IMG/VR virus record: IMGVR_UViG_3300028801_000026
Coordinates: 1-22,413 of that record
DNA length: 22,413 bases
Strand: one strand, 5' to 3'
Source: a virus
Both the position numbers and the translations under genes were made by a program. This document shows, piece by piece, positions 2,497-15,578 of this stretch (within the stretch, counting starts at the first letter, position 1; every line of letters begins with the position of its first letter). The notes under the pieces are model-generated. The model was not told the DNA's origin. It ran no database searches and was given only the letters and a program-made list of their open reading frames with translations.

Positions 2497-2735
2497 TGGT
2501 AGGCACATATGACTGGCCAGGATACCGGCTAATAATCAGTCTGATCTGCAATGGTAAATACCTAACGGTGGTCAACGATCAGAAGTCTTTCGTAGAATTT
2601 ACGGAAGCTTTGAAGGAACACATAGGGGACGATATAACCCATCTGTTGTTTCTGAGCACCGTGGATTGCACTATGGCAGATGCAGAGGCCCTCAGAGACT
2701 TAGGCGTAATAACTTTCACAACTGGTGAGGTATAG
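2496..2735 (+). CDS. Hypothetical protein, 79 aa
   Basis: Function unknown. It is a small acidic protein with an alpha/beta pattern: two short beta strands (YRLIISLIC and YLTVVND), a helix (FVEFTEALKEHIG) and a further strand-helix pair. The ATG overlaps the preceding TAA by one base and has AGGG 8 bases upstream. Nothing shows a catalytic role; the size and fold pattern would fit a small binding or inhibitor protein, which is only a guess. Confidence 0.7.
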   Translation: MVGTYDWPGYRLIISLICNGKYLTVVNDQKSFVEFTEALKEHIGDDITHLLFLSTVDCTMADAEALRDLGVITFTTGEV

Positions 2736-2736
2736 T

Positions 2737-3174
2737 ATGGCAAAGCAGAAGATTAAACAATTCTGGTTTGTTTGTAAGTTGGCAGTCACTGCTGACCCAA
2801 ACAAATCGGTGATCAACTTTGAACCCGCTCAAGCGGAAGTGGCACGCGTTGCCCCACGTATTCGGAACCGCAACGAAATCCCTGTCCCCCAAGGTTTCGC
2901 CAATCTGGCGGATCCTCCTCCTCCGGAACAACCCCAGGTTGCCGAACCTGGGGCGGGATATGGGTATTATCTCCAGGCCGCAGACGCCAAGGAGTTAAAC
3001 AAGGTATTCACCACAGAAGAGGCCGCCATCAAATTCGCACAACAGTGTGCGGAAGAGAAGCCCACCACCACATTTGGTGTGTTTGGCTGCTTGCGCGTGT
3101 ATGAAACAACCGTCCCCAGTCTGATCGAAAAGGCATTCACTGCGGACGGAGAACTGCGCCTTGTCGTGGGCTAA
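2737..3174 (+). CDS. Hypothetical protein, 145 aa, Pro-rich linker
   Basis: Function unknown. The start is the ATG at 2737, 6 bases after GAGG; a GTG at 2725 is in frame but has no ribosome-binding site and would overlap the previous gene. The N-terminal part is a beta-like basic segment (KIKQFWFVCKLAV). Residues about 58-75 are a Pro-rich linker (DPPPPEQPQ), followed by a Gly/Tyr turn (GAGYGYYL) and an alpha/beta C-terminal domain (about residues 80-145). The two-part layout suggests separate folded domains. The next ATG lies one base after its stop. Confidence 0.7.
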   Translation: MAKQKIKQFWFVCKLAVTADPNKSVINFEPAQAEVARVAPRIRNRNEIPVPQGFANLADPPPPEQPQVAEPGAGYGYYLQAADAKELNKVFTTEEAAIKFAQQCAEEKPTTTFGVFGCLRVYETTVPSLIEKAFTADGELRLVVG

Positions 3175-3175
3175 A

Positions 3176-3538
3176 ATGCTGGATGCTCGATATTCAACAT
3201 TACCATATTGTTGTGGTGTGTATGAGGCCGGGGACTTTGGTGTAGATGAATATGCCGACGTAGTGTCGAAGACACCCAAAGGGCTGGTCGGGGAGCTGGT
3301 CGAGGCGGCAGAGGGCCGCCCCATCATATTCAACTTCGTGCGCCAGAGAATTGGAAATGGTTGGGAATTTTCAGGAGACCCGCTGACCTTGCCCCTGGCA
3401 GAAGAGTATGAGTATGAGGTACTGCGCAAGTATGTATCGAAACACGAGGACGCCCTACATGTGGCTGAGTTTATAAATCCCAACAGCGGAAACATGGTGG
3501 ATTCGTGGATCCTCTTGTCTAACCTAAGAAAGGAATGA
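3176..3538 (+). CDS. Hypothetical protein, 120 aa, paralogue of the 4218-4802 product
   Basis: The biochemical function is unknown. The protein shares a clear series of motifs, in the same order, with the product of 4218-4802: Tyr-Cys-Cys near residue 11, a Phe-Gly-x-Asp turn, an aromatic strand ending FNFV (about residues 52-55), and FINPNSGNMV (residues 99-108) against FVNQNTGNII in the other protein. I infer that the two are paralogues, this one lacking about 70 N-terminal residues. I prefer the ATG at 3176, next to the preceding stop; a TTG at 3161 with GGAG 9 bases upstream is a possible alternative. It precedes the class I amidotransferase gene, while the paralogue follows it. Confidence 0.72.
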   Translation: MLDARYSTLPYCCGVYEAGDFGVDEYADVVSKTPKGLVGELVEAAEGRPIIFNFVRQRIGNGWEFSGDPLTLPLAEEYEYEVLRKYVSKHEDALHVAEFINPNSGNMVDSWILLSNLRKE

Positions 3539-3540
3539 AA

Positions 3541-4221
3541 ATGGAAGTAGCAGAGAAGACGAAAGTACTAACGTTAGGACACGTAGGACGTGGTACAGGG
3601 GCGCTAGAGCCGTTCGATCAGGTGTATCCCCACTCGATGCTTGTTACGTCTCAGGACATAGCTGACGGGGCTGAGATTGATGCTCTGGTCATCTGGGGCG
3701 GTGAGGATATCTCCCCAAGCTACTACAATGAAGCGGCCGCCATCGGGGGATCATATGCGCCCAACTCGCCTAGTCGTCGGGACGTTATCGAAGCGAGTGC
3801 CTGTCGCACGGCTATTGATCGCGGTATTCCCATTATTGGCGTATGTCGTGGTGCTCAGTTGGTTTGCGCCTTGGCTGGCGGTTCTCTCATTCAGCATGTG
3901 GATAATCATGGTCGTACTCATGATATGATGACCAAGGATGGTTACGTCTTGGCCACATCGTCGGTACATCACCAGATGCAGTATCCATATGATGTTGAAC
4001 ATGAATTGATTGCCTGGGCACATCCCCGCCGCAGCAGTATCTACATCACTGAGGCCAGCGAAAACGATTTAAAGATGGCAGACAAAAAGGAGGCCGAAAT
4101 TGTCTGGTATCCGAAGATCAAAGCTCTTGGGATCCAGGGCCATCCGGAGTTTCACAGCAACCCGCGTCGTGATCCTTTTGTCCAATACTGCATGAAACTT
4201 GTTCGGGAGTATGTCCTGTGA
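3541..4221 (+). CDS. Class I glutamine amidotransferase / peptidase C26-like gamma-glutamyl hydrolase
   Basis: This is a class I glutamine amidotransferase fold, closest in pattern to the PuuD/C26 gamma-glutamyl hydrolases, which cleave gamma-glutamyl amide bonds through a Cys-His-Glu triad. Visible are the WGGEDISP loop (about residues 52-59), the nucleophile elbow GVCRGAQ (Cys102), GGSLIQH after it, SVHHQ (about 141-145), and QGHPEFH with His201 and Glu203. The triad is complete and the 226-aa length is normal. I chose ATG 3541 because AAAGGA (3529-3534) sits 6 bases upstream; an ATG at 3535 overlaps the previous stop but is too close to that site. In this neighbourhood it could trim or edit gamma-glutamyl products of the amidoligases (inference). 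Confidence 0.92.
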   Translation: MEVAEKTKVLTLGHVGRGTGALEPFDQVYPHSMLVTSQDIADGAEIDALVIWGGEDISPSYYNEAAAIGGSYAPNSPSRRDVIEASACRTAIDRGIPIIGVCRGAQLVCALAGGSLIQHVDNHGRTHDMMTKDGYVLATSSVHHQMQYPYDVEHELIAWAHPRRSSIYITEASENDLKMADKKEAEIVWYPKIKALGIQGHPEFHSNPRRDPFVQYCMKLVREYVL

Positions 4222-4802
4222 ATCAAGCCTCACGTGATCATCTAAACCCAGCCTTACACCTTGTTGCCGAGGATTTCCTGAAGGACAACAAGCTGGTTGT
4301 GGAACGACTTGGCCAATGCCTCAGGCAGACAGTAAAAGGACTGACAATCTCGGCGGCGGCGTCGGATTATTTTGCTCGTCAGTGTGCTCCCGAACGTGAA
4401 CCAGACACACTTATCCAAGTGCTGGTCGAAGGACGGGCTCTGCTCTGGTTTACTGTGTCTCCGTACAACTACTGTTGTGCGATGAATCAGATCAACGGCT
4501 TCGGTTACGACAACTGCCTAGAGTTTGAGTTTGTAGATGCCATGATGGCCACTTTGCAGAAGAGCGTTCGTCGATATTCATCACAGCGTTGGGTGTTTAA
4601 CTTTGTGGAAACACGGCGGGATCGCGACCACCCCGTTGACGCCACAGAAGTTGTCTTGCCGGAGGTGGAAAGAGAGCCTCGGATGCATTTCGAGTATCTG
4701 TATGACTGGGCCAAGAGGCAGGCCAAGTTCCAAGAGATGTTGTTTGTTAACCAAAACACGGGTAATATCATTCACTTTTGCGAGGTTGTATTCCATGAAT
4801 AA
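4218..4802 (+). CDS. Hypothetical protein, 194 aa, paralogue of the 3176-3538 product
   Basis: Function unknown. The GTG start forms a GTGA overlap with the preceding stop, and GGGAG lies 8 bases upstream. The N-terminal about 70 residues are helical and Leu-rich (DFLKDNKLVVERLGQCL) and are absent from the paralogue. The rest carries the shared motifs: YNYCCAMNQ (about residues 84-90), GFGYD (94-98), WVFNFV (125-130) and FVNQNTGNII (176-185). The pair of Cys residues and the Asn/Gly-rich turn are the most conserved points and may form a binding site. It overlaps the downstream amidoligase start by 8 bases, so the two are probably co-translated. Confidence 0.78.
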   Translation: MNQASRDHLNPALHLVAEDFLKDNKLVVERLGQCLRQTVKGLTISAAASDYFARQCAPEREPDTLIQVLVEGRALLWFTVSPYNYCCAMNQINGFGYDNCLEFEFVDAMMATLQKSVRRYSSQRWVFNFVETRRDRDHPVDATEVVLPEVEREPRMHFEYLYDWAKRQAKFQEMLFVNQNTGNIIHFCEVVFHE

Positions 4803-5571
4803 CATCACGATGCTCGGTACGGACCCTGAAGTCTTCTTGTTTGACCCCGCAGCGCAGAAGTTTATCAGCAGCGTCGGTTTGGTGGGAGGATCGAAGCAGT
4901 TCCCACGCCCGATTGATGAAGAGGGCAATGCGGTCCAAGAAGACAATGTAACAGTGGAGTTCAACACGCCCCCGTGCAAGTCCGCTGCTGACTTCATTTT
5001 GCATATCAACAAGAACAAGACCTGGATCAAAGACCTTGCAGCAGAGTTGGGCCTTGAGATGCTGGTCAAGCCGTCGGCGGTGTTTGACGACGACCAACTC
5101 CAGTCATTCGAAGCTCAGACGTTTGGCTGTGAGCCTGACTTCAATGCTTGGATGGATGGGGACATGAATCCGCGTCCCAACGCTGCGAACAAGAATCTCC
5201 GTTCGTGTGGTGGTCACGTCCACATCGCTCTCAACGATGGTGATGATGTGCTTGGTGTCATTCAAGCAATGGACCTGTTCGTGGGCTGTTTGATGCTGGA
5301 CTTCGACGAAGATATGGGCCGCAGAGAGCTTTACGGGCGTGCTGGTGCCTTCCGTAAGAAGAGCTACGGTGTGGAGTACCGCACGGCTTCCAACGCCTGG
5401 ATTGAGTCGGATGATCGAATCCAGTGGGTGTGGGATCAGACGGACAAGGCACTTGAGTTTGTCCGCAACGGCGGTAAATTCACCGAAGGCCAAGCCTCGG
5501 ACATTCAGAACTGCATCAATAACTCTGACAAGGTGTTGTTGGCAAAACTCAAAGTGGAGTTTGGGCTGTGA
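4795..5571 (+). CDS. phiEco32-type COOH-NH2 ligase (amidoligase)
   Basis: This is a glutamine-synthetase-fold amidoligase of the kind Pfam calls phiEco32-like COOH-NH2 ligase type 2. Such enzymes are expected to join a carboxyl to an amine with ATP. Signatures in order are LGTDPEVFL with Glu12 in the first strand, VTVEFNTPP with Glu55, FGCEPDFNAW (110-119), GGHVHIAL with His141 and His143, and VEYRTASNAW with Glu194 and Arg196. These correspond to the metal/ATP-binding acidic residues and histidines of the family. The 258-aa length is typical. I chose ATG 4795, 9 bases after GAGG; the frame is open further upstream without a start signal. The substrate cannot be told from sequence. Confidence 0.92.
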   Translation: MNNITMLGTDPEVFLFDPAAQKFISSVGLVGGSKQFPRPIDEEGNAVQEDNVTVEFNTPPCKSAADFILHINKNKTWIKDLAAELGLEMLVKPSAVFDDDQLQSFEAQTFGCEPDFNAWMDGDMNPRPNAANKNLRSCGGHVHIALNDGDDVLGVIQAMDLFVGCLMLDFDEDMGRRELYGRAGAFRKKSYGVEYRTASNAWIESDDRIQWVWDQTDKALEFVRNGGKFTEGQASDIQNCINNSDKVLLAKLKVEFGL

Positions 5572-5756
5572 CTCTAGGAGAATTACTTAACGGCCTAGGC
5601 GAAGTAGATGGCTTTGACAGCCTGAAAGCTGTTGAACATCTCCACAATCACGAAGTAGTATTTGACACCTCAGACAGGGCCAACTTATACCTATTGTCGG
5701 TGTATTTGTCTGATGATGGGAAGATTCACATAGATATTGGGGATGCTGATGAATAA
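5568..5756 (+). CDS. Hypothetical acidic protein, 62 aa
   Basis: Function unknown. The GTG start overlaps the amidoligase stop as GTGA, with GGAG 8 bases upstream. The protein is small and acidic, with a helix near the start, a His-rich turn (EHLHNHEV, about residues 23-30), and a C-terminal strand ending in an acidic tail (IHIDIGDADE). The His cluster could bind metal, but no partner residues are obvious. Its position between two amidoligase genes makes it a candidate accessory or substrate protein, without direct evidence. Confidence 0.7.
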   Translation: MTLGELLNGLGEVDGFDSLKAVEHLHNHEVVFDTSDRANLYLLSVYLSDDGKIHIDIGDADE

Positions 5757-6369
5757 TTCCGAAGTTATTCAGGACTTCCGCCGTCGGTGGGAGGGAACCT
5801 TCGTGTGGCTTCACATGGAGGAGAAGGACAAAGAGTGTCTAGTGAAGATCCGGGAGGTGGAAGAAAGTGCCTCCAAGATTGGGGTACTTCATCTGGATTC
5901 GGCGGAGTATGGTGCCATTACCATTAACATGGGATCGGAGGGACACAGCATCAAGTTCAAGTATCCTCCGGTAGGTGTCTTTCAATTCAAGAAAGATGCT
6001 GTAGTGTTCCGCCGCAAGCCCACTCGTCAGTACCGCCGTGGGATTTGTTCGGATAACTCCGTGCTGGAGAACACCACCCGACGGATTTGTGGTCAACACG
6101 TGGGTTGGGACATCAAGGCCATCGAAGCGGCATTTGACCACAAGATCTACACTGTGAAGGAGGCTTTGGCTGTATTGGAAACGGGGAAGGTGAGAAGTGT
6201 GGCACTGGACAATAATTACAGCTTGGCTCTTTCCATGTTTAAAGCTCCTGACCACGTGCTTTTCCATTGGCAGTTGCCTGTGGCTCGGGTATCCTCTGCT
6301 GGCCGAGTTACCAATATTTACGAGGCTGCATACATGGATCAACTCACGAAAATCTTTAACAGAGCCTGA
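5749..6369 (+). CDS. Hypothetical protein between the two amidoligases, 206 aa
   Basis: I do not recognise a family. The ATG at 5749 is 6 bases after GGGG; an ATG at 5743 and a TTG at 5737 are also in frame but badly spaced. Residues 1-95 look beta-rich (strands around VWLHM, IGVLHLD, AITINMG, VGVFQF). A basic segment follows (RRKPTRQYRRGICSD, about residues 88-102), then an alpha/beta region with a Trp-Asp (HVGWDIKAIEAAF) and a final part with FHWQLPVARV. No signal peptide or membrane helix is seen. It overlaps the preceding gene by 8 bases and is followed after 7 bases by the second amidoligase, so it belongs to the island by position. Confidence 0.78.
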   Translation: MNNSEVIQDFRRRWEGTFVWLHMEEKDKECLVKIREVEESASKIGVLHLDSAEYGAITINMGSEGHSIKFKYPPVGVFQFKKDAVVFRRKPTRQYRRGICSDNSVLENTTRRICGQHVGWDIKAIEAAFDHKIYTVKEALAVLETGKVRSVALDNNYSLALSMFKAPDHVLFHWQLPVARVSSAGRVTNIYEAAYMDQLTKIFNRA

Positions 6370-6376
6370 GGTTATC

Positions 6377-7279
6377 ATGGGAAAAACCATCGTAGAGTAT
6401 TTTGGGATGAAGCCGGTAAAGATCTACCCGGCCTGGAAAAAGACGTTTGACACGTTCCCTGTTCCCGGCGATCCTATAGAAAGTGAGGTGTTGGTGGGCA
6501 TTGAGGTAGAGGTGGAGAACGCTCAAGATACTTCAACACCTAATTCAGGGGCGTGGATTCCAACAGCAGACGGATCTCTTCGCAACGGTGGGGTTGAGTT
6601 TATCAGCCAGCCAATGCCAGCGAAGTATGCACCTCACATCTTGCAGGAATTGTTGCAGGACACCTTGAAGAAAGACTCGTGCTTCAGCCCCCGCACTTCG
6701 ATTCACGTGCATTTGAACATGCAGGATCTGGCGACAGAGAAAGTTGTCGACATCATTCTGATGTATGCGTGCATCGAACCGTTGTTGTACAAGTTTACGG
6801 GCCGTGGTCGTGCCAAGAACATCTACTGTGTGCCTCTGTTCGACACCAATCTGTTGACGTTCATGGCGACGGAGGATTTGGCAATGTCGACGGAGAAGTG
6901 GTCCAAATACACGGGCCTGAACATCCTGCCGTTGCGGGACAAGGGCACGCTGGAGTTCCGCCAGATGCATGGAACGTTCGACCACCACAAGGTCACTATC
7001 TGGGTACGCTTGCTCACCAAGTTGGTGGAGTTTTGTAAGGCCACGGAAACTGGCACGATCCGCAAGACGGTGTTGGGGCTGTCCAAGTCAACGGATATGT
7101 CCATCTTGATTAGCCAGATCTTTGGTCAAGATTCCCAATACCTGAAGTTTGAATCGTGGGAAGATGTGAAACACGCCGTTGGAAACGTTCGATCTGCTTT
7201 TGCTAAACCAGCTACCTTAAATGCTCTGATCCCAGAGCGGCTGGCCGATTCAGCTTATTTTGTTAAGACAAGGGGCTAA
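6377..7279 (+). CDS. Amidoligase_2-type enzyme
   Basis: This is a second glutamine-synthetase-fold amidoligase, matching the pattern of the Pfam family named putative amidoligase enzyme. Motifs in order are GIEVEVEN with Glu43, Glu45 and Glu47; ADGSLRNGGVEFIS with Asp65 and Glu74; SIHVHLNMQD with His110 and His112; WSKYTGLN (175-182); and GTLEFRQMHGT with Glu193 and Arg195. These are the expected ATP/metal and substrate positions, so it is probably active. The 300-aa length is normal. The start at 6377 follows TGAGG by 4-5 bases. It differs from the enzyme at 4795-5571, so two separate amide-forming steps are likely. Its product is unknown. Confidence 0.92.
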   Translation: MGKTIVEYFGMKPVKIYPAWKKTFDTFPVPGDPIESEVLVGIEVEVENAQDTSTPNSGAWIPTADGSLRNGGVEFISQPMPAKYAPHILQELLQDTLKKDSCFSPRTSIHVHLNMQDLATEKVVDIILMYACIEPLLYKFTGRGRAKNIYCVPLFDTNLLTFMATEDLAMSTEKWSKYTGLNILPLRDKGTLEFRQMHGTFDHHKVTIWVRLLTKLVEFCKATETGTIRKTVLGLSKSTDMSILISQIFGQDSQYLKFESWEDVKHAVGNVRSAFAKPATLNALIPERLADSAYFVKTRG

Positions 7280-7282
7280 GAC

Positions 7283-9004
7283 ATGTGTGGTATTTGTGGC
7301 ATTATCGCGCGAAAAGGAATGGGCTTGTCCCACAAGCATCTTGAATTGTTCGAACAAATGCTTGTTATCAACACCATACGAGGTAAGGATGCCACTGGTG
7401 CAATGACCGGCTTCCGTAACAAAGAGGCCCGAGTTGTCAAGATCGGAACCAATCCGTTCAACCTATTCCGCACGGACGCATGGACCAAGTTTAAGAGCGA
7501 CGCTATCAATCGGGGTCGGTTTGTTATCGGCCACAACCGTGCCAAGACCATTGGGGAAGCCAGCAGTGAGAACGCCCACCCGTTTGTGGAGAATCACATC
7601 ATCTTGGTCCACAACGGCACCTTGATGAATCACACCAAGCTAACCACGGAGAAGGTTGAGGTGGACTCCCACGCCATTGCTCACGCGCTGGCTGTGGATA
7701 CCCCGGAGAACGTCATCCCTACCATTGATGGGGCTTTCGCTTTGGTGTGGTACAATACCGAGACGGAGCGGCTGTATGCTGTTCGCAACAAGGAACGTCC
7801 GTTGAGTCTGCTGTACACCGACGATGCCTACATGGTGTCCAGTGAGCCGTGGATCGCAGCAATGCCCACAAGCCGCAGCAATATCAAGATAGATGACATT
7901 CAAGACATTGAGCCAGGTAAGTTGTACGAGTTTGACTTCCTGGGTAACATCAAGATCACGCAAGTGGAACTCAAGCCGGAGAAAGTGTATAAAAATCAGG
8001 GTGTTTTCGTTGGCAACGCACGAGACGAGTGGGAAGGGTATGGGGAACCCCACTCTTTTTTCAGAACGGGGGAAAGGGAGACCCCCCCGGAAATCAAGAG
8101 TCTCCAACAAGCCCTGACGACTCCTTCGAAAGATTGTGTGATCGAGTCGGGAGGCGTGTGTCAGGCAAGTCTGAAGTCCATAGCGGGCTTAGCGAACAGG
8201 ACAAAATCGAAACAACAAGAGAACTCAACCACCCGGCCCGTCGCTCTCTTAACCGCGTCGGGGACGGATGGCCGTACACCCCAGCCAGCGAACTCTAGTG
8301 AGGAAGAAAAGGCAGAAGCTGCCCAAGGTCACATCAAGATCTCTGATCCTGAGTTCGTCCGTGGCGAGCCGCTGTTGATTAAGATTTGGGAGACGACTCA
8401 AACTCCCACGGGGCGGTATCGGTTTGCTGGTAAGGTGATGCAACCCGACAAGTCTATGGCAGACATCACCGGATTCCTGCCTCAAGCTGTAACCAATGCC
8501 TCTCTGCATCTGTGGATCAGTGAGAATCTTCAAGCGGATGTAATGTTTGTGACTGTTACTGTTGGTGGTCGATCAATCTTCGTGCACAAAGTACGTCGCG
8601 TGGAGTACGTGCCGGTCCACGCCACGGATGGGGGGATTCCCAAACCGCTGTGGGAGCATGTCCAAGCCAACTGTCACTGTGATAAGTGTGGCCGTGAAGT
8701 TGAAGAGTGGGAGCGTGTGTTTACGCGAGTCACCATGAAGTCCATCATTGGTTCTGGTGAACCAAAGAACACGCCCACCATTTTGTGTGCTGATTGTGTG
8801 TCAGATAAGGTACAAGGAGAATTCGGTGAAGGCTACAAAGCGCGCTACAACAATGCAAAGAAAGCCATTGAAAACCAACGGGCCAGTCAGGAACGCATCG
8901 CCCATCTTTCTCCTTCCGTACAAAATAGGGAGTCAGTCGGCGCGGAACCTGTCGGAAAGAATGGGTCAGTTATTGTCGTGCCGGGTGCCCAGACTGTACA
9001 TTGA
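7283..9004 (+). CDS. Class II glutamine amidotransferase fused to a zinc-ribbon domain
   Basis: Residues 1-220 form a class II (Ntn) glutamine amidotransferase. Cys2 is the N-terminal nucleophile (MCGICGI), Arg86 lies in GHNRAKTIG, Asn111-Gly112 in LVHNGTL and Asp128 in VDSH; these are the glutamine-binding and catalytic residues of the class. It would release ammonia from glutamine. Residues about 255-345 are a low-complexity polar linker. Residues 350-445 appear beta-rich, and residues 464-505 hold a zinc ribbon (Cys466/Cys469 and Cys502/Cys505). No synthetase domain is fused, so the ammonia acceptor is probably a neighbouring enzyme. The start is certain because Cys must follow Met, and AGGGG is 7 bases upstream. 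At 573 aa it is much longer than a stand-alone domain. Confidence 0.93.
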   Translation: MCGICGIIARKGMGLSHKHLELFEQMLVINTIRGKDATGAMTGFRNKEARVVKIGTNPFNLFRTDAWTKFKSDAINRGRFVIGHNRAKTIGEASSENAHPFVENHIILVHNGTLMNHTKLTTEKVEVDSHAIAHALAVDTPENVIPTIDGAFALVWYNTETERLYAVRNKERPLSLLYTDDAYMVSSEPWIAAMPTSRSNIKIDDIQDIEPGKLYEFDFLGNIKITQVELKPEKVYKNQGVFVGNARDEWEGYGEPHSFFRTGERETPPEIKSLQQALTTPSKDCVIESGGVCQASLKSIAGLANRTKSKQQENSTTRPVALLTASGTDGRTPQPANSSEEEKAEAAQGHIKISDPEFVRGEPLLIKIWETTQTPTGRYRFAGKVMQPDKSMADITGFLPQAVTNASLHLWISENLQADVMFVTVTVGGRSIFVHKVRRVEYVPVHATDGGIPKPLWEHVQANCHCDKCGREVEEWERVFTRVTMKSIIGSGEPKNTPTILCADCVSDKVQGEFGEGYKARYNNAKKAIENQRASQERIAHLSPSVQNRESVGAEPVGKNGSVIVVPGAQTVH

Positions 9005-9704
9005 TCGCCCCAATCGTCAGCGTAACCTGACTCCCGGTAATAAGATTCTTTTGAACTGGGGCAACAGCGGGCCCCCTGTGGATGTGGGGGGAGTTCCTAT
9101 CTCTAAGTGGGTTAACAATCATAAACAAGTGTCCCTTGCAAGTAATAAGCTTAGGACTTTTCAAGAGTTGGAGAAGGTTGATGGAATACGTATCCCCGAG
9201 TTCACGACTAGTGGACCCACAGCCCGTGAGTGGCTTGCTTCCGGAGTTGCTGTTGTTTGTCGTACTAAGCTCACTGGCCATTCTGGGGACGGCATTGTAC
9301 TTGCTAATGGCAAAGAAGCAAGTTTACCAGCGGCTCCGTTGTATGTTAAGTACATCAAGAAACAAAAAGAGTTCCGAATCCACGTTGCCTTTGGAGAAGT
9401 GATTGATGTCCAAGAGAAGCGTAAGAGGAAAGACCTTGCAGACAACTTCGAAACGAACTACCAAGTTCGTAACCATCACACAGGATGGGTGTATTGTCGT
9501 GAAGACATTCAAGAGCCGGAGGAAATGCGAGGAATGGCTATCGCAACAGTTCGGGCACTTGGACTCGACTTCGGAGCCGTGGATGTTATATGGAACGAGA
9601 AAGCCAACCAGTGCTTCGTGCTAGAAGTAAACACGGCCCCCGGCCTGGAAGGTACAACTGTAGAAAAATACGCCGAGGCTTTTGTTAAGGAACTACGTAA
9701 ATGA
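8961..9704 (+). CDS. ATP-grasp ligase, RimK-like
   Basis: ATP-grasp enzymes activate a carboxylate as an acyl phosphate and join it to an amine or thiol. Visible are the small-domain ATP-binding segment VVCRTKLTGHSGDGI (Arg101, Lys103 and a Gly-rich loop), YVKYIKKQKEFRIHV with Glu137 and Arg139, LDFGAVDVIW with Asp207, and FVLEVNTAPGL with Glu222 and Asn224, the magnesium ligands. The 247-aa length is short for RimK, with a reduced N-terminal domain. The start is not secure: ATG 8961 overlaps the previous gene by 44 bases and has only a weak GGAAAG upstream; GTG 8985 is an alternative. It is the third ATP-dependent amide-bond enzyme in the island. Confidence 0.9.
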   Translation: MGQLLSCRVPRLYIDRPNRQRNLTPGNKILLNWGNSGPPVDVGGVPISKWVNNHKQVSLASNKLRTFQELEKVDGIRIPEFTTSGPTAREWLASGVAVVCRTKLTGHSGDGIVLANGKEASLPAAPLYVKYIKKQKEFRIHVAFGEVIDVQEKRKRKDLADNFETNYQVRNHHTGWVYCREDIQEPEEMRGMAIATVRALGLDFGAVDVIWNEKANQCFVLEVNTAPGLEGTTVEKYAEAFVKELRK

Positions 9705-9871
9705 AAGTACAGATGGAAAGCAGATTCCAACCTTACGTCATTAAGGTGGAAACATTCGAAGACCACAGATTACTTCTCAGTCTTATAGCAGCGGGCCTAA
9801 AAGAGTATGGATCGCAAGAAAATATTAAACAGTTTAAAGCACAAATCACCGAAGGGTTCCGGAGAAGTTGA
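9701..9871 (+). CDS. Small hypothetical protein, 56 aa
   Basis: Function unknown. The gene starts on the ATP-grasp stop (ATGA) with AAGGA 9 bases upstream and ends on the next start (TGATG), so it fills its slot exactly, which is the best evidence that it is real. The product is basic and appears mostly helical: a strand (YVIKVETF), a helix (HRLLLSLIAAGLKEYG, about residues 22-37) and a basic C-terminal helix ending RRS. No motif is recognised. Confidence 0.6.
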   Translation: MKVQMESRFQPYVIKVETFEDHRLLLSLIAAGLKEYGSQENIKQFKAQITEGFRRS

Positions 9872-10308
9872 TGAAAACGTTTAGTGGCAACATATGGCAA
9901 GAGACTGACAAGGCTGGTGTGGTAAGCATTGGGCTTCGTCAGACGTATCTGGAAGAGAAGATGCAAGAGTGTTTCCACATCCTTCAGGCAGACGCCATCA
10001 ATCTTAAGAAAGGGGGACCGATGATGGTGATCGAGACCAATGATGGGCTGGAGAGTCTTAAGAGTCCGCTTACGGGACGTATCACGTTCTTTAACGACAA
10101 GGCCCGCAACTTCCCGGATCGACTGGTGGAAGATGATGTTATCTTCACTGTGTTGCCGGAGGGAGTCAAGGCGGTTGAGGTAAAGAGGAAAGCTGTGACA
10201 AAGCCGAAGTTTGTTGATTGGTATGATTTTGAGGAGCAAGCAGCAGAGGTGCCCAGGCAGGCCCCAGTGGGGAACATGGCCAACAATCTTAACGTCCGTC
10301 TCCCTTAA
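9871..10308 (+). CDS. GcvH-like barrel-sandwich protein lacking the lipoyl lysine
   Basis: Residues 15-96 read like a glycine-cleavage H protein. VVSIGLRQTYLEE matches the family's opening strand and helix, followed by Gly-Gly-Pro and a strand MMVIET, the conserved SPLTG turn (residues 65-69), Asn75, FPDRLV and a closing strand VIFTVLPEG. Where H proteins have Glu-Ser-Val-Lys-Ala with the lipoylated Lys, this protein has Glu55-Thr-Asn-Asp58-Gly, so the attachment residue is Asp and lipoylation is not expected there. A basic linker and a polar tail (residues 100-145) follow. The start at 9871 has GGAG 6 bases upstream. The similarity is my reading by eye; a general biotinyl/lipoyl-like fold is the fallback. 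It closes the ligase island and could be a carrier or scaffold. Confidence 0.6.
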   Translation: MKTFSGNIWQETDKAGVVSIGLRQTYLEEKMQECFHILQADAINLKKGGPMMVIETNDGLESLKSPLTGRITFFNDKARNFPDRLVEDDVIFTVLPEGVKAVEVKRKAVTKPKFVDWYDFEEQAAEVPRQAPVGNMANNLNVRLP

Positions 10309-10313
10309 GGAGG
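10309..10313 (+). promoter_or_regulatory. Strong ribosome-binding site supporting an ATT start
   Basis: GGAGG directly follows the stop codon of the preceding gene (TAAGGAGG) and lies 8 bases before an in-frame ATT at 10322. No ATG, GTG or TTG occurs in that frame near the site, so this element is the main evidence for the non-standard start. Confidence 0.7.
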
Positions 10314-10321
10314 AACCCAAA

Positions 10322-10567
10322 ATTCACTGTCTAGCGTGTGATAAACTATTAAACGACTATGAATCCACTCGTAAGTACAGCAGTAGTGGTGATTTTGTTG
10401 ATCTGTGTAACAGATGTTTTTCCACGGTTGCTGAAGACATTCCGGACATTGATGACGGCCCTGTTGGTGAAGAGATCGATGAGATTGATGAGGGAGAGAT
10501 CATCGGTGAGGACGCATCACTTTGGCCAGGATACCGGTATGGAGAAGGATACTCCCAAGATGACTAA
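10322..10567 (+). CDS. Small zinc-finger protein with probable ATT start, 81 aa
   Basis: This is a phage zinc-finger-type protein. It begins, with ATT read as Met, as MHCLACDKLLNDYESTRK; Cys3/Cys6 and Cys29/Cys32 (LCNRC) form a four-Cys zinc site. Similar short phage proteins open the same way, so the mature N-terminus should lie here. The rest is a long acidic tail (DIDDGPVGEEIDEIDEGE). Starting at the upstream ATG (10211) would overprint 98 bases of the previous gene and has no ribosome-binding site, whereas GGAGG sits 8 bases from the ATT. AUU starts are known but rare in bacteria (infC of E. coli). The function is unknown; position suggests a DNA-metabolism accessory or regulator. Confidence 0.75.
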   Translation: MHCLACDKLLNDYESTRKYSSSGDFVDLCNRCFSTVAEDIPDIDDGPVGEEIDEIDEGEIIGEDASLWPGYRYGEGYSQDD

Positions 10568-10865
10568 CCCAATCATACTCTGTAAGCCGTGCAATCGAAA
10601 GATGACTCGGCTTGAGTGGATGAAAAACACAGCGTGTGACAACCCTGACTGTAGGTGTCCGGAGATAAAAAAAGCAATGAAGGCAACCCAAGTTGCAATT
10701 AAACGAGCGCAGTCTCGCGGCGGGGAAGAGGTGGCGAGGATGGCTAATACTATATCAACCAAGTCAACCCCAGTGCCGAATGGACGAGATGAGAACATCC
10801 ATCAACTCTACATCGACATCCCCCAGGTGATCACCATTGATATCTCTCCAAAGAGGAAGAAGTGA
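10560..10865 (+). CDS. Small Cys-rich (zinc-binding) protein, 101 aa
   Basis: The N-terminal part carries Cys8/Cys11 (CKPC) and Cys26, Cys31 and Cys33 (CDNPDCRC), a likely zinc-binding module, with a basic stretch between them. The rest has a Lys/Ala-rich helix (IKKAMKATQVAIKRAQS) and a strand-like C-terminus ending in basic residues (SPKRKK). The ATG is preceded by AAGGA with a spacing of 10 and overlaps the previous gene by 8 bases. The charge and zinc site suggest nucleic-acid binding (inference). It ends in a GTGA overlap with the primase gene. Confidence 0.75.
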   Translation: MTNPIILCKPCNRKMTRLEWMKNTACDNPDCRCPEIKKAMKATQVAIKRAQSRGGEEVARMANTISTKSTPVPNGRDENIHQLYIDIPQVITIDISPKRKK

Positions 10866-11662
10866 GTGGGCATTCCAGTGAGTCAAAGTTTAGCCATCAC
10901 GGTCCCTGTACGTCGTGTGGGTCCAAGGATAATGTCGCGTGGTATGCTGGGGCTGGTGCGAGGTTATCAGGATTCTGTTTCGGGTGCGGAAAGTTTTACC
11001 GCGAAGCAGGTCAAGGATTACCTGAGTTGGCATCTGCTGGAGCTAACACTTCAGGGACTCCTAAGGTGGGGGCACAATCCGAAGCTGGAGTACGACCCCT
11101 TGCTGATGACATTGGACATTATTATCCCCTAGGTGTGGTGGAGTGGGTCCAGAAGTACCACCTCACTCCTACCGACCTAATCCGTAACAACGTTTTTTGG
11201 AGTCCAAAGAATGAGCAACTCTTTTATGTCTTTTATGGAGTCGATAAAGAAGTTGTCCTGTGGCAAGCCCGGAACTTCCGAGCCACAACAACCCACAAGT
11301 CACGCTTCTTTACTAGCGGATCGACAGCAGATGTTATTGCAGCATACTATCCAGAACAAGATAGCGACTCGTGCTGCATTGTTGAAGACTGTGTTTCCGG
11401 CATCCGAGTTTCCCAAGCCGGTCGAACTGGAGTTCCATGCTTTAGTGCATCGATGCCGTCAGTCAAGCTCACCCGACTCGCCAGAATGTATCGGCGCATA
11501 GATGTGTGGCTTGATTCTGACAAGTTCAAAGAAGCGGTAGGATTAAGTAGAAAGATCCAGACTCTTGGATATGAAAGTCGGGTTATCCACACAACGGAAG
11601 ACCCAAAGTGCTATACAGTGGAACAAGTAAAGGAGATATTCGGCGATGAAACAGTGGCGTAA
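10862..11662 (+). CDS. DNA primase (zinc-binding and TOPRIM domains)
   Basis: A stand-alone primase like the N-terminal half of T7 gp4, which makes RNA primers on the lagging strand. Residues 14-46 form a zinc module (Cys16, Cys19, Cys39, Cys42) that would recognise the template trinucleotide. The TOPRIM domain follows, with Glu175 in CCIVEDCVSG and Asp218/Asp220 in VWLDSDK, the metal-binding acidic residues. The 266-aa length and absence of a Walker motif show that the helicase is encoded separately, at 13822-15054. The GTG start overlaps the previous stop, with AGGA 4 bases upstream. A further 2.2 kb separates the two partners, including a protease and an HNH gene. Confidence 0.92.
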   Translation: MSGHSSESKFSHHGPCTSCGSKDNVAWYAGAGARLSGFCFGCGKFYREAGQGLPELASAGANTSGTPKVGAQSEAGVRPLADDIGHYYPLGVVEWVQKYHLTPTDLIRNNVFWSPKNEQLFYVFYGVDKEVVLWQARNFRATTTHKSRFFTSGSTADVIAAYYPEQDSDSCCIVEDCVSGIRVSQAGRTGVPCFSASMPSVKLTRLARMYRRIDVWLDSDKFKEAVGLSRKIQTLGYESRVIHTTEDPKCYTVEQVKEIFGDETVA

Positions 11663-11798
11663 AGAAGGTCTGGGTCGTAAGAATAAGTTCAATCACATCG
11701 ATTTCAGCAAGTTCCAGTCAGGGCTTTTGCTGGTCTTGATCAAACGTGCTGGAGATAATTTCAAATTCCCAGGGAATCGAGTCCGTAATGAAAACTGA
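11646..11798 (+). CDS. Small basic protein, 50 aa
   Basis: Function unknown. It opens with a Lys/Arg-rich segment (MKQWRKEGLGRKNKFNHI), then a short hydrophobic stretch (SGLLLVLIKRAG, about residues 25-36) and a basic C-terminus. The ATG overlaps the primase end by 17 bases and AAAGGAG lies 11 bases upstream; the end overlaps the next gene by 11 bases. The tight tiling and plausible ribosome-binding site support it. The basic character suits a nucleic-acid-binding peptide, without proof. Confidence 0.5.
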   Translation: MKQWRKEGLGRKNKFNHIDFSKFQSGLLLVLIKRAGDNFKFPGNRVRNEN

Positions 11799-11982
11799 AA
11801 TGATTGCAGGTAAAGAGAGATTACTTTGCTATGCGGGAGGTATCCTTGGCAGTTTGTTGTCAAATCCCAACAACTCCCACACCCCGGCCTCCTTGATTGC
11901 CGGGAGTATTCGGACAGCACAACGGTTGATTGACACAGTGTACGACGATGAGAAACTAAAAGAGATCCTCAACGGTGAATAA
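11788..11982 (+). CDS. Small helical protein, 64 aa
   Basis: Function unknown. It appears mostly helical: KERLLCYAGGILGSLLSN (about residues 9-26) and ASLIAGSIRTAQRLIDTVYD (about 33-52). The first helix is moderately hydrophobic but not a clear membrane segment. I prefer ATG 11788; an ATG at 11800 is possible, and the frame is open to 11746. It overlaps the start of the lipoprotein protease gene by 8 bases. Confidence 0.6.
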   Translation: MKTEMIAGKERLLCYAGGILGSLLSNPNNSHTPASLIAGSIRTAQRLIDTVYDDEKLKEILNGE

Positions 11983-12649
11983 TTTCATTCGAGGTGCAAT
12001 GGTGGGCCTAGCTATTCTGCTGGCCGGATGTGCAGTTAACGTGCATTACTTTCCGCCTCTCCAGAAACAACTAGACAGTGTTGTGTCGGTTACGATGGAC
12101 TTGGGCCACTGTAGTGGTTGGGTACTGGCTGGAACCCACACGGTAGTTACAGCAGCCCACTGTCAGGAGGGACAGGCAGTGCCAGCAAGCCCTTATGTAG
12201 TGGACTTCGGGGACGGCAAGCCGCACGACTTTGTTATCGAAAAGAAAGGGGACGGGGAGAACTTTGCCACTGGTCCTGATCTGATGACGCTGAAGACCAC
12301 AGACGGGACTATCAATTGGCCGAAAGGTTTTCCTGTTTGTAAAGACCCCGCATATTATGGGGAACGAGTACACTTAATGGGCGGACCACTTGCACAAAGT
12401 AAAACTATTTCGTTCGGCACTGTCAGCAACCCGAGTCGAGACCTCACGGACGATCTTGGTAAGTTTGCTACTTTTGTTCAGTATGATGGTGTCATGCTTC
12501 CAGGAAACAGCGGTGGTCCTGCTGTTGACGACGTACATAGTTGTGTCGTTGGTGTCGCGGAACTGGCACTCAAAGCTGATCGGGGCAGTGACGTCCCGTT
12601 TGGCCTGAACTTCTTGACTCCAGCTAAGTCTTTGGAACTGATTAAATGA
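11975..12649 (+). CDS. Trypsin-like serine protease with lipoprotein signal peptide
   Basis: A chymotrypsin-fold (S1-like) serine protease that is probably exported and lipid-anchored. Residues 1-19 are a type II signal peptide: Arg6, a hydrophobic core and the lipobox LLAGC with Cys19; Ala at +2 predicts the outer membrane under the Lol rule. The catalytic triad is complete: His62 in VVTAAHC, Asp102 in GPDLMTL and Ser179 in PGNSGGP. Cys46 and Cys63 are placed like the disulfide next to the catalytic His, and Cys122 and Cys190 may pair. The GTG at 11975 gives the full n-region; ATG 11999 after GAGG would give a weaker signal. It does not fit the DNA-replication context. Possible roles are periplasmic processing or exclusion of other phages (inference). 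Confidence 0.88.
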   Translation: MNNFIRGAMVGLAILLAGCAVNVHYFPPLQKQLDSVVSVTMDLGHCSGWVLAGTHTVVTAAHCQEGQAVPASPYVVDFGDGKPHDFVIEKKGDGENFATGPDLMTLKTTDGTINWPKGFPVCKDPAYYGERVHLMGGPLAQSKTISFGTVSNPSRDLTDDLGKFATFVQYDGVMLPGNSGGPAVDDVHSCVVGVAELALKADRGSDVPFGLNFLTPAKSLELIK

Positions 12650-12969
12650 ACAAACTAGAACTATATCTGGAGAATTGCACTGTCTCGTTCCTCCGAATGC
12701 CCTTGGCTATCCTGGGGAAGTACCAAGCAGTTCAAGGTGATAGCTGGCTTAAGAACGTCCTGGTGACGTTGGACCAGTTGGGTAATGCCCTGACCTTCGG
12801 GGATCCCAACGAGACCATCTCAAGCCGTTCTGCGAAGGCTCAGCTAGCCGGTGAGGAGTGGGGATGTGTGATGTGTAAGCTCCTTAGCTGGTTTCAAACC
12901 AACCACTGCCAACTTGCCCTTGAGCGGGACAAAGGACGACGGGCAGTTATACCGGATGCTAATCCATAA
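12646..12969 (+). CDS. Hypothetical phage protein, 107 aa, 'GDPNETISSR' type
   Basis: This looks like a widespread small phage protein marked by an Asn-Ala-Leu-x-x-Gly-Asp-Pro-x-Glu-Thr-Ile-Ser-Ser-Arg core (about residues 47-61), a Gly-rich helix after it and a His-Cys near the C-terminus (NHCQLALE). In other phages such proteins often sit near lysis or late genes; the function is not known to me. No signal peptide is apparent, though residues 10-25 are moderately hydrophobic. The ATG overlaps the protease stop (ATGA) and the end overlaps the next gene by one base. Confidence 0.72.
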   Translation: MNKLELYLENCTVSFLRMPLAILGKYQAVQGDSWLKNVLVTLDQLGNALTFGDPNETISSRSAKAQLAGEEWGCVMCKLLSWFQTNHCQLALERDKGRRAVIPDANP

Positions 12970-13106
12970 TGAATGCAGACATTGCTGTTGTAATTGAACA
13001 ACTGTCTAACTACCTAGAGAATCCGGGTACACTGGATGGTATTGTAATACCAGTGAAAGACCTTCAATACTGGCTATCTGTTGTACAGGAGCAACAAACA
13101 CCATGA
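12969..13106 (+). CDS. Small hypothetical protein, 45 aa
   Basis: Function unknown. The start uses the last base of the preceding stop (TAATG) and the end overlaps the next start, so the gene fits the tiling of its neighbours. The product is acidic and helical with a central strand (LDGIVIPVKDL). There is no strong ribosome-binding site, so translation probably depends on coupling. Confidence 0.5.
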   Translation: MNADIAVVIEQLSNYLENPGTLDGIVIPVKDLQYWLSVVQEQQTP

Positions 13107-13186
13107 CTCCAATCTTGTGTTATCTCATTGGTTTATTGTTAGGTATTTGGGTAGGTCTTGGGATAGGGACATCCAGTTGTAGATAA
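13103..13186 (+). CDS. Putative 27-aa membrane peptide
   Basis: This tiny gene starts in an ATGA overlap with the previous stop, and AGGAG lies 11 bases upstream. Residues 3-22 are an uninterrupted hydrophobic segment rich in Leu, Ile and Gly (ILCYLIGLLLGIWVGLGIG) that would span a membrane once; the C-terminus is Ser-Ser-Cys-Arg. It is the last gene before the intergenic region at 13187. It could be an inner-membrane accessory of the adjacent block or a chance open frame; length alone cannot decide. Confidence 0.45.
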   Translation: MTPILCYLIGLLLGIWVGLGIGTSSCR

Positions 13187-13196
13187 GCAACACAAT

Positions 13197-13218
13197 GGGC
13201 TGGTCTACTTGACAGCCC
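13197..13218 (+). terminator. Possible weak terminator hairpin
   Basis: GGGCTG and CAGCCC form a 6-bp stem around a 10-base loop, followed by the pyrimidine-rich TTCTATTCT. It sits just after the last gene of the upstream block. The T-run is interrupted, so termination may be weak, and the right arm overlaps the -35 box of the next promoter. Confidence 0.4.
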
Positions 13219-13237
13219 TTCTATTCTGTGAGATAAT
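13209..13237 (+). promoter_or_regulatory. Near-consensus sigma70-type promoter
   Basis: TTGACA (13209-13214) is followed after exactly 17 bases by GATAAT (13232-13237): a perfect -35 and a 5/6 -10 at the optimal spacing. Transcription should start near 13244, giving a very short leader before the GAGGAG site of the HNH gene. It would drive the HNH, helicase and polymerase genes with host RNA polymerase. Confidence 0.75.
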
Positions 13238-13250
13238 AGTTACATAATAT

Positions 13251-13256
13251 GAGGAG
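13251..13256 (+). promoter_or_regulatory. Ribosome-binding site of the HNH gene
   Basis: GAGGAG lies about 7 bases after the predicted transcription start and 9 bases before an in-frame ATA at 13266. An ATG at 13249 precedes it but leads to a stop after six codons. The site supports translation of the HNH frame from a codon other than ATG, GTG or TTG. Confidence 0.55.
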
Positions 13257-13265
13257 AGCTATAAT

Positions 13266-13883
13266 ATAAAAGAAACTATTAATATAAAAGAACTAAAAGA
13301 ACAAATCAGATACGATTTAGTATCTGGATATTTCTTTTGGATTGTTTCTAAAAGAGGTAGAAGCCTAACAACACCAGCAGGTACAATTGACCACTTCGGT
13401 CATCGTAGGGTGTGTGTTAATGGAGTATTGTGGTTAGCATGTAACCTCGCATGGTATTACATGACTGGTGTGGTCCCCCCTGAACGAGTCCGTCACCTCG
13501 ACGGTAATCCCCTCAACAATCAGTGGACCAACCTACAGCTACAGACGCATGCTGAACACTTGAAGTATAGACGACGCCGACGTACCACGTGTACCGGAGT
13601 CAAGGGTATCTCTAAAAATTACGCTAACGATACCTGGGAAGTTTCCGTTGAACACAACGGTAAGTTTTACAATGCTGGACCTTTCCTTTCACTGGACGCC
13701 GCGCTTGCAGCGCACGAGACGTTAATTCAAAAGATTAGTAACGAAGTACCGAAGCAGGCCAAGCCTGTGGGACGTGTAAAATTCTCCGAAAAGGAGATAG
13801 CTCAAGCGATGGAGGTTTTTATTGAGCGAACTGAGCGTAATCCGCCACCTACTGAACAAGACGACTTACCATGGTATACGTGA
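13266..13883 (+). CDS. HNH homing endonuclease with AP2-like domain, non-canonical start
   Basis: A free-standing phage homing endonuclease. The N-terminal module reads YDLVSGYFFWIVSKRGR, then GTIDHFGHRRV and LAWYYMTG, the usual lead into the HNH site: His77 in VRHLDGNPLNNQ, with Asn85 and Asn89. Residues about 110-155 (GVKGISKNYANDTWEVSVEH onward) form an AP2-like DNA-binding domain, followed by a basic helical C-terminus. These frames are continuous with the region before GTG 13410, so that internal GTG would cut off a conserved part. No ATG, GTG or TTG exists upstream in frame; ATA 13266, 9 bases after GAGGAG, fits best and ATT 13278 is second. The 3' end overlaps the helicase start by 62 bases. 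Confidence 0.82.
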   Translation: MKETINIKELKEQIRYDLVSGYFFWIVSKRGRSLTTPAGTIDHFGHRRVCVNGVLWLACNLAWYYMTGVVPPERVRHLDGNPLNNQWTNLQLQTHAEHLKYRRRRRTTCTGVKGISKNYANDTWEVSVEHNGKFYNAGPFLSLDAALAAHETLIQKISNEVPKQAKPVGRVKFSEKEIAQAMEVFIERTERNPPPTEQDDLPWYT

Positions 13884-15054
13884 TAGAATCGATGTAGAGG
13901 ATCTCTCCAAAGACCTACATCCAATCCTACGTACTATTGATGCCCACTTTCTTGGTGACAACCACGAGAGTATCACAGTAGATGATCTATCTAACTTGTA
14001 TTTCTCAACGAATCGTGGTAAGATAGAGTTCTATCAAGATGTATTTGAAGCTATCAGGAAGAATGAAGCTTCGTTGGAAAGTACCGAGAAATTAATAGAC
14101 GGCCTACAAACGTCCAGGCTCCTACGGGAACTATCGCTGGATGCCTACGATGCAGCAGAGGGCCGCAAGCCAATGGAGGGCATTCTAGCCAAGCTGGAGG
14201 CACTTAAACAAACAGGTGAAGGAGATGCATCTAAAGATAGTGACTTGGATGACTTCGTATCTGATGATCTTATCGAGATCGTTAATGCAAGTCGTGCTGT
14301 GGAAGGTTTGCGATGGCGTCTTAACAGTCTTAATCAGGCTCTTGGTTCGCTTCGACAGGGTAATTTTGGTTTTGTATTTGCACGCCCCGAAACAGGCAAG
14401 ACGACGTTCCTCGCTTCGGAAGTTACACACATGGCTTCGCAAGCTAAGGGTCCGATTCTCTGGTTCAATAATGAGCAGGTTGGCCGAGAAGTAATGTTAC
14501 GTTGTTACCAAGCAGCCCTAGGGATTGACATGGTAACTTTGTTACGGGATATGCCGGGGAACCACAGACGATATCACGAGGTAACTCATGGGAATATCAA
14601 ACTCAAAGATTCGGCGAGTATCCACTGGAGGCAGGTGGAAAAGATCTGTTCGATCCAAAAACCATCTCTCGTTGTATTCGATCAAATTGACAAGATCAAG
14701 GGTTTTGATTCCGACCGGGAAGATCTCCGCCTTGGGGCGATCTACATATGGGCGCGTGAACTTGCGAAGACGTACTGCCCCGTTGTGGGGGTGTGCCAAT
14801 CTGATGGATCGGGAGAGGGTCAAAAGTGGCTTACCATGGGTAATGTGGCTAACGCCAAGACAAGTAAACAAGCTGAGGCGGATTGGATTTTGGGCATTGG
14901 CAAAGTGAATGAGCCTGGGTATGACAACTTACGCTTCATGCACCTGTCCAAGAACAAACTTGTTGGTGATCCAGACGGCAAGCCCGAGATGCGCCACGGA
15001 AGATTTGAAACACTGATTGATCCAACCATTGCCAGATATCAGGATTTAATGTGA
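13822..15054 (+). CDS. Replicative DNA helicase (RecA-fold, T7 gp4 C-terminal/DnaB-like)
   Basis: This hexameric-helicase-type motor unwinds DNA ahead of the polymerase and partners the primase at 10862-11662. Residues 1-130 are a helical N-terminal domain. The RecA core has the Walker A ARPETGKT (187-194, Lys193, Thr194), Glu218 in WFNNEQ as the likely catalytic base, the Walker B PSLVVFDQID (Asp287) and Gln326 in VCQSDGS. LSKNKL (375-380) corresponds to the late basic motif. The TTG start at 13822 is strongly supported: GGAGG is 6 bases upstream, and the next residues (MSELSVIRHLLNK) look like a normal helicase N-terminus. The length is 410 aa. The start lies inside the 3' end of the HNH gene. 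Confidence 0.93.
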   Translation: MSELSVIRHLLNKTTYHGIRDRIDVEDLSKDLHPILRTIDAHFLGDNHESITVDDLSNLYFSTNRGKIEFYQDVFEAIRKNEASLESTEKLIDGLQTSRLLRELSLDAYDAAEGRKPMEGILAKLEALKQTGEGDASKDSDLDDFVSDDLIEIVNASRAVEGLRWRLNSLNQALGSLRQGNFGFVFARPETGKTTFLASEVTHMASQAKGPILWFNNEQVGREVMLRCYQAALGIDMVTLLRDMPGNHRRYHEVTHGNIKLKDSASIHWRQVEKICSIQKPSLVVFDQIDKIKGFDSDREDLRLGAIYIWARELAKTYCPVVGVCQSDGSGEGQKWLTMGNVANAKTSKQAEADWILGIGKVNEPGYDNLRFMHLSKNKLVGDPDGKPEMRHGRFETLIDPTIARYQDLM

Positions 15055-15578
15055 AAAACTTTAAGTTGTTGGAGTTTGACTTCGACGCTGGACCTCTTCT
15101 TGAGGAACTAGCTGACAAGGAACATTTGTGGAACCAGAATGATATTCGAACCAAAGGTAATTCTTTTCACAAAGAAGCTGATGATATTCTGCTGATCTTT
15201 GATATTGATGAAGAAGATAACAAAGGATGCTATCCAGCGTCAGGGGAACTTGAAAAGCTGGGAGATTTTGTATATAACTTCTTGGAACATCTGGGGTACA
15301 CAGAAGACGACGCTGTATTGGGTCGCATGGTGTTGACTCGCCTTAAGCCAGGGAAAGTTATCTATCCCCATATAGACCTCAAGGACCACACGGATGCGTA
15401 TAACCGATATCATTTATGCCTTACCGATGCTGATAGTATTTTTATGTGTGGTGATGAAGTCCTTAACGAACTAGGTGGCACAGCTTTCTGGTTTGATAAT
15501 TCTTTGATGCACAGTGTACAAAACAAAGGCGACAGTGATCGCATTCACCTTATTGTGGACATAGCTAAACATGACTAA
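15051..15578 (+). CDS. 2-oxoglutarate/Fe(II) oxygenase, Asp/Asn beta-hydroxylase-like
   Basis: A double-stranded-beta-helix dioxygenase that should hydroxylate a substrate using iron, oxygen and 2-oxoglutarate. The iron ligands are visible as His107-x-Asp109 in LKPGKVIYPHIDL and His154 in NSLMHSVQNKG; Arg164 ten residues later is placed to bind 2-oxoglutarate. FWFDNSLMH and RIHLIVDI are typical of the aspartyl/asparaginyl hydroxylase branch. The acidic segment around 42-57 (DIDEEDNKG) has no known role. The GTG start overlaps the helicase stop, with AGGA 6 bases upstream. The substrate is unknown: it could be a protein side chain, a peptide from the upstream island or a nucleotide. Confidence 0.85.
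   Translation: MKNFKLLEFDFDAGPLLEELADKEHLWNQNDIRTKGNSFHKEADDILLIFDIDEEDNKGCYPASGELEKLGDFVYNFLEHLGYTEDDAVLGRMVLTRLKPGKVIYPHIDLKDHTDAYNRYHLCLTDADSIFMCGDEVLNELGGTAFWFDNSLMHSVQNKGDSDRIHLIVDIAKHD

Follow-up and report, generated by a model that had tools for sequence, protein, structure and literature searches.

Introduction

What use has a phage for a series of enzymes that form amide bonds and handle glutamine? The question is raised by the IMG/VR record IMGVR_UViG_3300028801_000026, a viral contig of 22,413 bases (IMG/VR class linear) whose whole length is referred to here as the window. An operon at positions 3535-10308, on a single strand, encodes two amidoligases, a RimK-like ATP-grasp ligase, a class-II glutamine amidotransferase (GATase) and an enzyme of the class-I GATase fold; it lies 5' of the primase (10862) and the family-A DNA polymerase (15759). 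An earlier note, made from the sequence alone, read it as a peptide-ligation island that might place a peptide tag on DNA precursors, on the wall or on a protein. The window proves to hold a further copy of a known and widespread phage cassette with a few lineage-specific additions. As to its function, the operon may constitute a cytosolic gamma-glutamyl ligate-and-trim pathway acting in mid-infection, a proposal whose chances we regard as evenly balanced.

This cassette has been published for phiRIO-1, phiEco32, LUZ24, PA11, and CW02 as a "peptidoglycan modification cassette" (PMC5498523), with Hardies 2013 cited for its phiRIO-1/PSA-HP1 version (PMC5498523) and Iyer 2009 cited elsewhere (PMC10580990). 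The published proposal is that it alters the wall peptides and blocks superinfection (PMC5498523, PMC10580990). The literature search recovered neither an experiment on such a wall change or superinfection block nor a report of the cassette's product.

A conserved phage cassette

All the genes described here lie on the plus strand. The COOH-NH2 ligase (4795-5571; phiEco32 type 2, with the GCS/GS fold; L in the gene orders below) matches PF14395 at 8.6e-8 and phrog_3815 at 5e-69, while the second amidoligase (Amidoligase_2, 6377-7279, also of the GCS/GS fold; M) matches PF12224 (1e-10) and phrog_7469 (6e-39). The class-II GATase (7283-9004; GAT2) is recognised by PF13522 (GATase_6, 2e-15), PHROGs (1.5e-54) and the structures of GlmS and PurF, and the ATP-grasp ligase (8853-9704) by RimK (3e-6), phrog_2599 (1e-75), the MptN and RimK models and RimK structures. 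The fifth enzyme (3535-4221) has the peptidase C26/class-I GATase fold (PF07722 1e-18; GATase 7e-11) and is a probable gamma-glutamyl hydrolase. Pfam and PHROGs together back the enzyme names of the earlier note, and its remark that the genes are translationally coupled also holds, successive genes overlapping or being separated by at most 7 nt. The start of the ATP-grasp gene is placed at about 8853, upstream of the frame adopted earlier (8988), because homology to PA11 gp8 (41% identity) begins at residue 18 of the longer reading frame; the gene therefore overlaps the GATase gene by about 150 nt, out of frame. An Rfam search gave no match.

The neighbourhood of these genes was compared across phages. 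An alignment of 14 COOH-NH2 ligase sequences served as the query and found 490 relatives in IMG/VR, of which 80 loci were kept; the alignment was required, as a locus scan with a single sequence returned nothing. Hidden Markov models (HMMs) matched the amidoligase in 74 of the 80 loci, the class-II GATase in 75, and the ATP-grasp ligase in 74, and all four core enzymes occur together in 71, nearly all the others being interrupted by contig ends. The commonest order, C26-L-X-M-GAT2-ATP-grasp, where X is a protein considered below, is that of the window. Among the 50,697 records of INPHARED, the three ligase-type enzymes have 333, 314, and 311 matches; the phages concerned include Zobellviridae, Grimontviridae and phages of the LUZ24-like, phiEco32-like and crAss-like groups. 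The homologues thus co-occur in other phages, and the two amidoligases, the ATP-grasp ligase and the two GATase-type enzymes form one conserved phage unit, as the comparative literature had predicted. Cellular homologues, searched for with one strict motif, amount to six loci in 84,980 genomes, all of them on metagenome-assembled contigs; the phage-type gene set is mostly or fully present in four of these.

With the phiRIO-1/PSA-HP1 cassette and its relatives, the window shares the four core enzymes, a gamma-glutamyl-cleaving enzyme, the site 5' of the primase/helicase genes and, in most of them, X between the ligases. It differs in that C26 replaces a gamma-glutamyl cyclotransferase (GGCT), in its order (C26-L-X-M-GAT2-ATP-grasp), and in two additions confined to close relatives, namely a paralogous pair and a protein of the GcvH fold. 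The nearest annotated phage, Alcaligenes phage vB_Af_QDWS535 (OK172329), has the L-X-M-GAT2-ATP-grasp order of the window, with 51% identity in the COOH-NH2 ligase and 56% in the ATP-grasp ligase, and likewise carries a GcvH-like gene, although a short one, after the ATP-grasp gene. Unlike the window, it has both a C26 and a GGCT gene.

Active sites of the enzymes

The COOH-NH2 ligase has 26 invariant columns in the alignment of 14 phages, including E12, E55, H141, H143, E194, and R196, and the invariant residues of the second amidoligase are E43, E45, E47, H110, H112, R145, E193, and R195. The class-II GATase has an N-terminal Cys2, and its C2, R86, N111, G112, and D128, which correspond to the glutamine-site residues of GlmS, are conserved in the alignment with annotated phages; its C-terminal region, with a CxxC...CxxC pattern, is too divergent for useful modelling. 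In the ATP-grasp ligase, the D199/E213/N215 region (numbered from the 8988 frame) is intact in the window copy, as are C104, H203, and E205 of the C26 enzyme, which are invariant in its alignment. Since the aligned active-site residues are intact in the window copies, the five proteins are predicted from their sequences to be working enzymes and not relics.

A gamma-glutamyl-cleaving enzyme as a near-constant member

The enzyme at 3535-4221 had been called a class-I glutamine amidotransferase. The fold is confirmed, but the role of ammonia donor implied by that name is not, the nearest relatives being stand-alone gamma-glutamyl hydrolases. Its top NCBIfam matches are gamma-glutamyl-CDP-amidate hydrolase (7e-8) and then PuuD (gamma-glutamyl-GABA hydrolase), with scores far under the family cut-offs in both cases; by sequence, its relatives of known structure are PDB 3fij, 7d4r (which we take to be SpuA), 6vtv, and PuuD. 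A trimming enzyme appears more likely than an ammonia donor, because the protein is closest to gamma-glutamyl hydrolases and because other phages have GGCT in place of C26 or alongside it.

With HMMs built for this analysis, C26 was found in 68 of the 80 IMG/VR loci and GGCT in 11. One or the other lies near 67 of the 71 complete modules, and both near four; of the remaining four modules, one has C26 elsewhere on the contig, one is at a contig edge, and two are on long contigs with neither. In INPHARED, the genus tallies of the ligase-type enzymes agree nearly one to one with those of the cleaving enzymes (Pseudomonas, 119-121 against 16 C26 plus 105 GGCT; Escherichia, 92-93 against 93; Proteus, 8/8; Salmonella, 7/7; Cronobacter, 6/6; Aeromonas, 9-11/11). 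GGCT is rare among phages outside the module-bearing set. As both families cut gamma-glutamyl amides, a product or intermediate of the pathway is probably such an amide.

The one GGCT-bearing exception examined is a Bacillus phage, 055SW001 (L102), in which an amidoligase, GGCT and an annotated poly-gamma-glutamate hydrolase lie within 10 kb (5006-14378), the rest of the module being absent.

Several points weigh against a gamma-glutamyl pathway. C26 and class-I GATase share a fold, so that the sequence would also be compatible with an ammonia-donor role. The two long module-bearing contigs with neither C26 nor GGCT measure 83 and 65 kb. The INPHARED tallies compare genus names and not individual records, and they count RefSeq/GenBank duplicates. 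Finally, distance correlations within the module (r 0.55-0.79) are not above the values obtained with the primase, so co-inheritance alone is no proof of function.

Protein X

Between the two ligases, at 5743-6369, lies a protein of about 190 amino acids, termed X (phrog_11055, 2e-7), which had not been singled out as a core component in the first reading of the sequence. A profile of X, whose members have 13-25% identity to the window copy, matches 63 of the 80 IMG/VR loci and 12 of 13 annotated phages, and in nearly all X-bearing modules the gene adjoins that of the amidoligase. Its AlphaFold model, from 52 sequences, reaches a pLDDT of 95.7, with a small beta-barrel in the N-terminal half. 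When searched with Foldseek against BFVD, the fold is found only in uncharacterised phage proteins (E 1.5e-10), CW02 gp8 included; against the PDB no match reaches E <= 0.001, and residues 2-105 resemble only small barrels of the SH3/Sm/Tudor-like kind (Z about 6). X is a core component of the podovirus version of the cassette, unnamed and well folded. No function can be assigned to it from matches as weak as these small barrels, but its position suggests a non-catalytic partner of the ligases.

Twelve modules without X have the order L-ATP-grasp-GAT2-M or a similar one (L007, L039, L061, L062, L068, L071, L073, L074, L078, L080, L085, and L088). The idea that X is fused to the amidoligase of such modules, which have the crAss-like order, was considered and rejected: N-terminal extensions of 145-235 amino acids are present, but they are unlike X by profile. 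No open reading frame (ORF) combining two module domains was found.

Proposed pathway and its alternatives

In the proposed ligate-and-trim pathway, the RimK-like ATP-grasp enzyme and the two GCS/GS-fold ligases would use ATP to activate carboxylates and would create amide bonds in which glutamate takes part; one or more of these bonds would be a gamma-glutamyl amide. The class-II GATase would hydrolyse glutamine and so supply ammonia or glutamate, X would act as a non-catalytic partner of the ligases, and the C26 hydrolase (elsewhere GGCT, or both) would cut gamma-glutamyl amides, thereby removing a protecting or misplaced glutamate. The gamma linkage, the direction of the reactions and the role of X are what we infer. 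Precedents for such chemistry exist. In butirosin biosynthesis (BtrJ/BtrG) and putrescine metabolism (PuuA/PuuD), an ATP-dependent gamma-glutamylation is coupled with removal of the glutamate by a GGCT enzyme (BtrG) or a C26 enzyme (PuuD). The window resembles these protection systems in that its removal enzyme belongs to one of the same two families, C26; it differs in that the phage ligases belong to other families (PF14395 and PF12224) and in that the window has no recognised downstream pathway enzymes. The timing is taken from PaP3, in which ORF42-48, the genes of this module, are transcribed as middle-class genes with a peak 10-30 min after infection (PMC4707531). For the acceptor, our best guess, and a tentative one, is a soluble wall-peptide precursor or similar small peptide.

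A rather doubtful alternative, which corresponds to the protein tag of the earlier note, is that the module modifies proteins: the RimK-like enzyme and the amidoligases would attach glutamate, or else a short peptide, to one particular protein of the host or the phage, and C26 or GGCT would edit the result. RimK modifies the C-terminus of ribosomal protein S6, and the ATP-grasp ligase of the cassette falls in the RimK/MptN group; moreover, four related phages encode, in or near the module, 8-18 small proteins each with a genome-specific C-terminal tail (described below). However, the window, its clade and most module phages have neither a common tail nor a conserved acceptor protein. Neither is there a conserved small protein resembling Pup: the two small ORFs of the operon, at 5568-5756 (62 amino acids, ending in DADE, gene status uncertain) and 9701-9871 (56 amino acids, ending in FRRS), have no relatives. 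The Pfam scan of both ligases gave no Pup ligase model, only PF14395, PF12224, and a weak GCS2 match. It appears unlikely that the module serves amino-acid or polyamine metabolism, that is, adds gamma-glutamyl groups to polyamines or other amines and takes them off again, or makes the nitrogen of glutamine available to the phage by recycling. The C26 enzyme is indeed nearest to gamma-glutamyl polyamine hydrolases of the PuuD and SpuA types, but LUZ24-like and phiEco32-like phages use GGCT and not C26, and a simple amine cycle would not need two further ligases and X.

The peptide tag on DNA precursors suggested by the earlier note, or a modification of DNA bases by a peptide-like group, has been weakened to the point of being extremely improbable. 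In most phages, the genes directly 3' of the module do encode primase/helicase and polymerase. Nevertheless, phage tf, which is LUZ24-like and carries this module, has DNA that is cut by RsaI, HpaI, EcoRV, SmaI, and HaeIII, five enzymes that jointly test all four bases (PMC3517423), which makes a DNA modification unlikely; PaP3-type phage DNA is cut by BamHI (PMC8540360). In addition, no base-hydroxymethylating gene is present among the scanned ORFs of the window, which is a fragment.

These observations have practical consequences. A near-constant gamma-glutamyl-cleaving enzyme narrows the chemistry to species that mass spectrometry can detect, while X offers a handle on the complex. Several hundred sequenced phages carry the cassette, some of them infecting laboratory strains of Escherichia coli and Pseudomonas aeruginosa, and LUZ24, PaP3, and phiEco32-like phages are tractable, so that work on the cassette does not depend on the uncultured phage of the window.

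Lineage-specific additions

The paralogous pair mentioned in the earlier note could be identified as the products of 3161-3538 (P1) and 4218-4802 (P2), with 25% identity over 106 amino acids (BLASTP E 3e-7 in a single comparison). Both are clade-specific accessory proteins; P1 has relatives only in loci L015-L019, and tandem copies of the 3161 type precede the C26 gene in two relatives. Just 5' of the module, at 2725-3174, a short protein is encoded that is conserved in 14 related loci, in most of which it has a GEL-type C-terminus.

Directly 3' of the ATP-grasp gene, the accessory gene 9868-10308 encodes the protein that had been called GcvH-like. As regards the fold, the call was correct: a Foldseek search with the AlphaFold model finds GcvH structures at a best E of 9e-6, and a profile matches PDB GcvH at 1e-4, the GCV_H match itself (0.003) being below the Pfam cut-off. 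The lipoyl-lysine expected of such a protein is lacking. In a profile alignment, an Asp occupies the position of the lipoyl-lysine of E. coli GcvH, and none of the ten members of the window's GcvH-fold family has Lys there. Judged by these residues, the protein, which shares the fold of the glycine cleavage H protein, cannot be a classical lipoyl carrier.

Genome-specific C-terminal tails in related phages

The tails of the four related phages are LENE in Citrobacter phage CVT22 (L103; 18 ORFs, including one ending in LENK), LEND in Erwinia phage Pecta (L107; 16 ORFs), LENK in Klebsiella phage Asterion (L106; 14 ORFs, including one MENK) and LEENV-like in Salinivibrio phage CW02 (L104; 8 ORFs). 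The tailed proteins, mostly of 50-120 amino acids, have unrelated bodies and are encoded in the module and replication regions; the tail is constant within a genome, differs between genomes, and is absent from enzymes and late genes. Internal occurrences of the motif, among the 44-52 thousand residues of all ORFs per genome, number two in Asterion and none in the other three phages.

An embedded Shine-Dalgarno sequence for the next gene is present in 49 of the 50 tails with a start within 14 nt. Of six tails without a nearby downstream gene, five have lost it, the peptide being retained through synonymous codons; these six were selected for having the tail, and so show its persistence and not its frequency. 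The embedded sequence was therefore rejected as the sole cause of the LENx tails: it accounts for the GAG codon before a close gene, but not for the tails retained elsewhere. No shared tail was found in the window, in the 80+ module loci, or in PA11, KIT05, T5S1, RIO-1, and VpV262. The idea that the small ORFs provide a peptide tag of general use was rejected on these grounds, and the tail, being absent from the window and most of the module phages tested, is not a general substrate of the module. That the ligases act on protein C-termini, with the LENx tails as a recognition site for conjugation or glutamylation and other or fewer acceptors in the window's lineage, is very improbable. The pattern is nonetheless unusual and merits a study of its own.

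Other genes of the window

Between the primase and helicase genes, 11975-12649 encodes a trypsin-like protease (PF13365 4e-14), whose relatives are confined to L015, L016, L017, and L019. It bears a signal of the lipoprotein type (LAGC) as well as a His/Asp/Ser triad (motifs TAAHC and GNSGGP), and could be a periplasmic superinfection factor. A stretch of some 440 bases (12970-13410) in which no gene is listed, and whose G+C content is below that of its surroundings, precedes an HNH endonuclease gene (13410-13883) and that of a DnaB-like helicase. The family-A DNA polymerase (15759-17770) is split into two ORFs with a 57-amino-acid ORF between them, and Rfam gave no intron there; the nearest annotated phage (L002) likewise has two ORFs. 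Also in the replication region, 15051-15578 encodes an aspartyl/asparaginyl beta-hydroxylase-type oxygenase (PF05118 1e-13); a search of the 94 other loci gave no relative of it.

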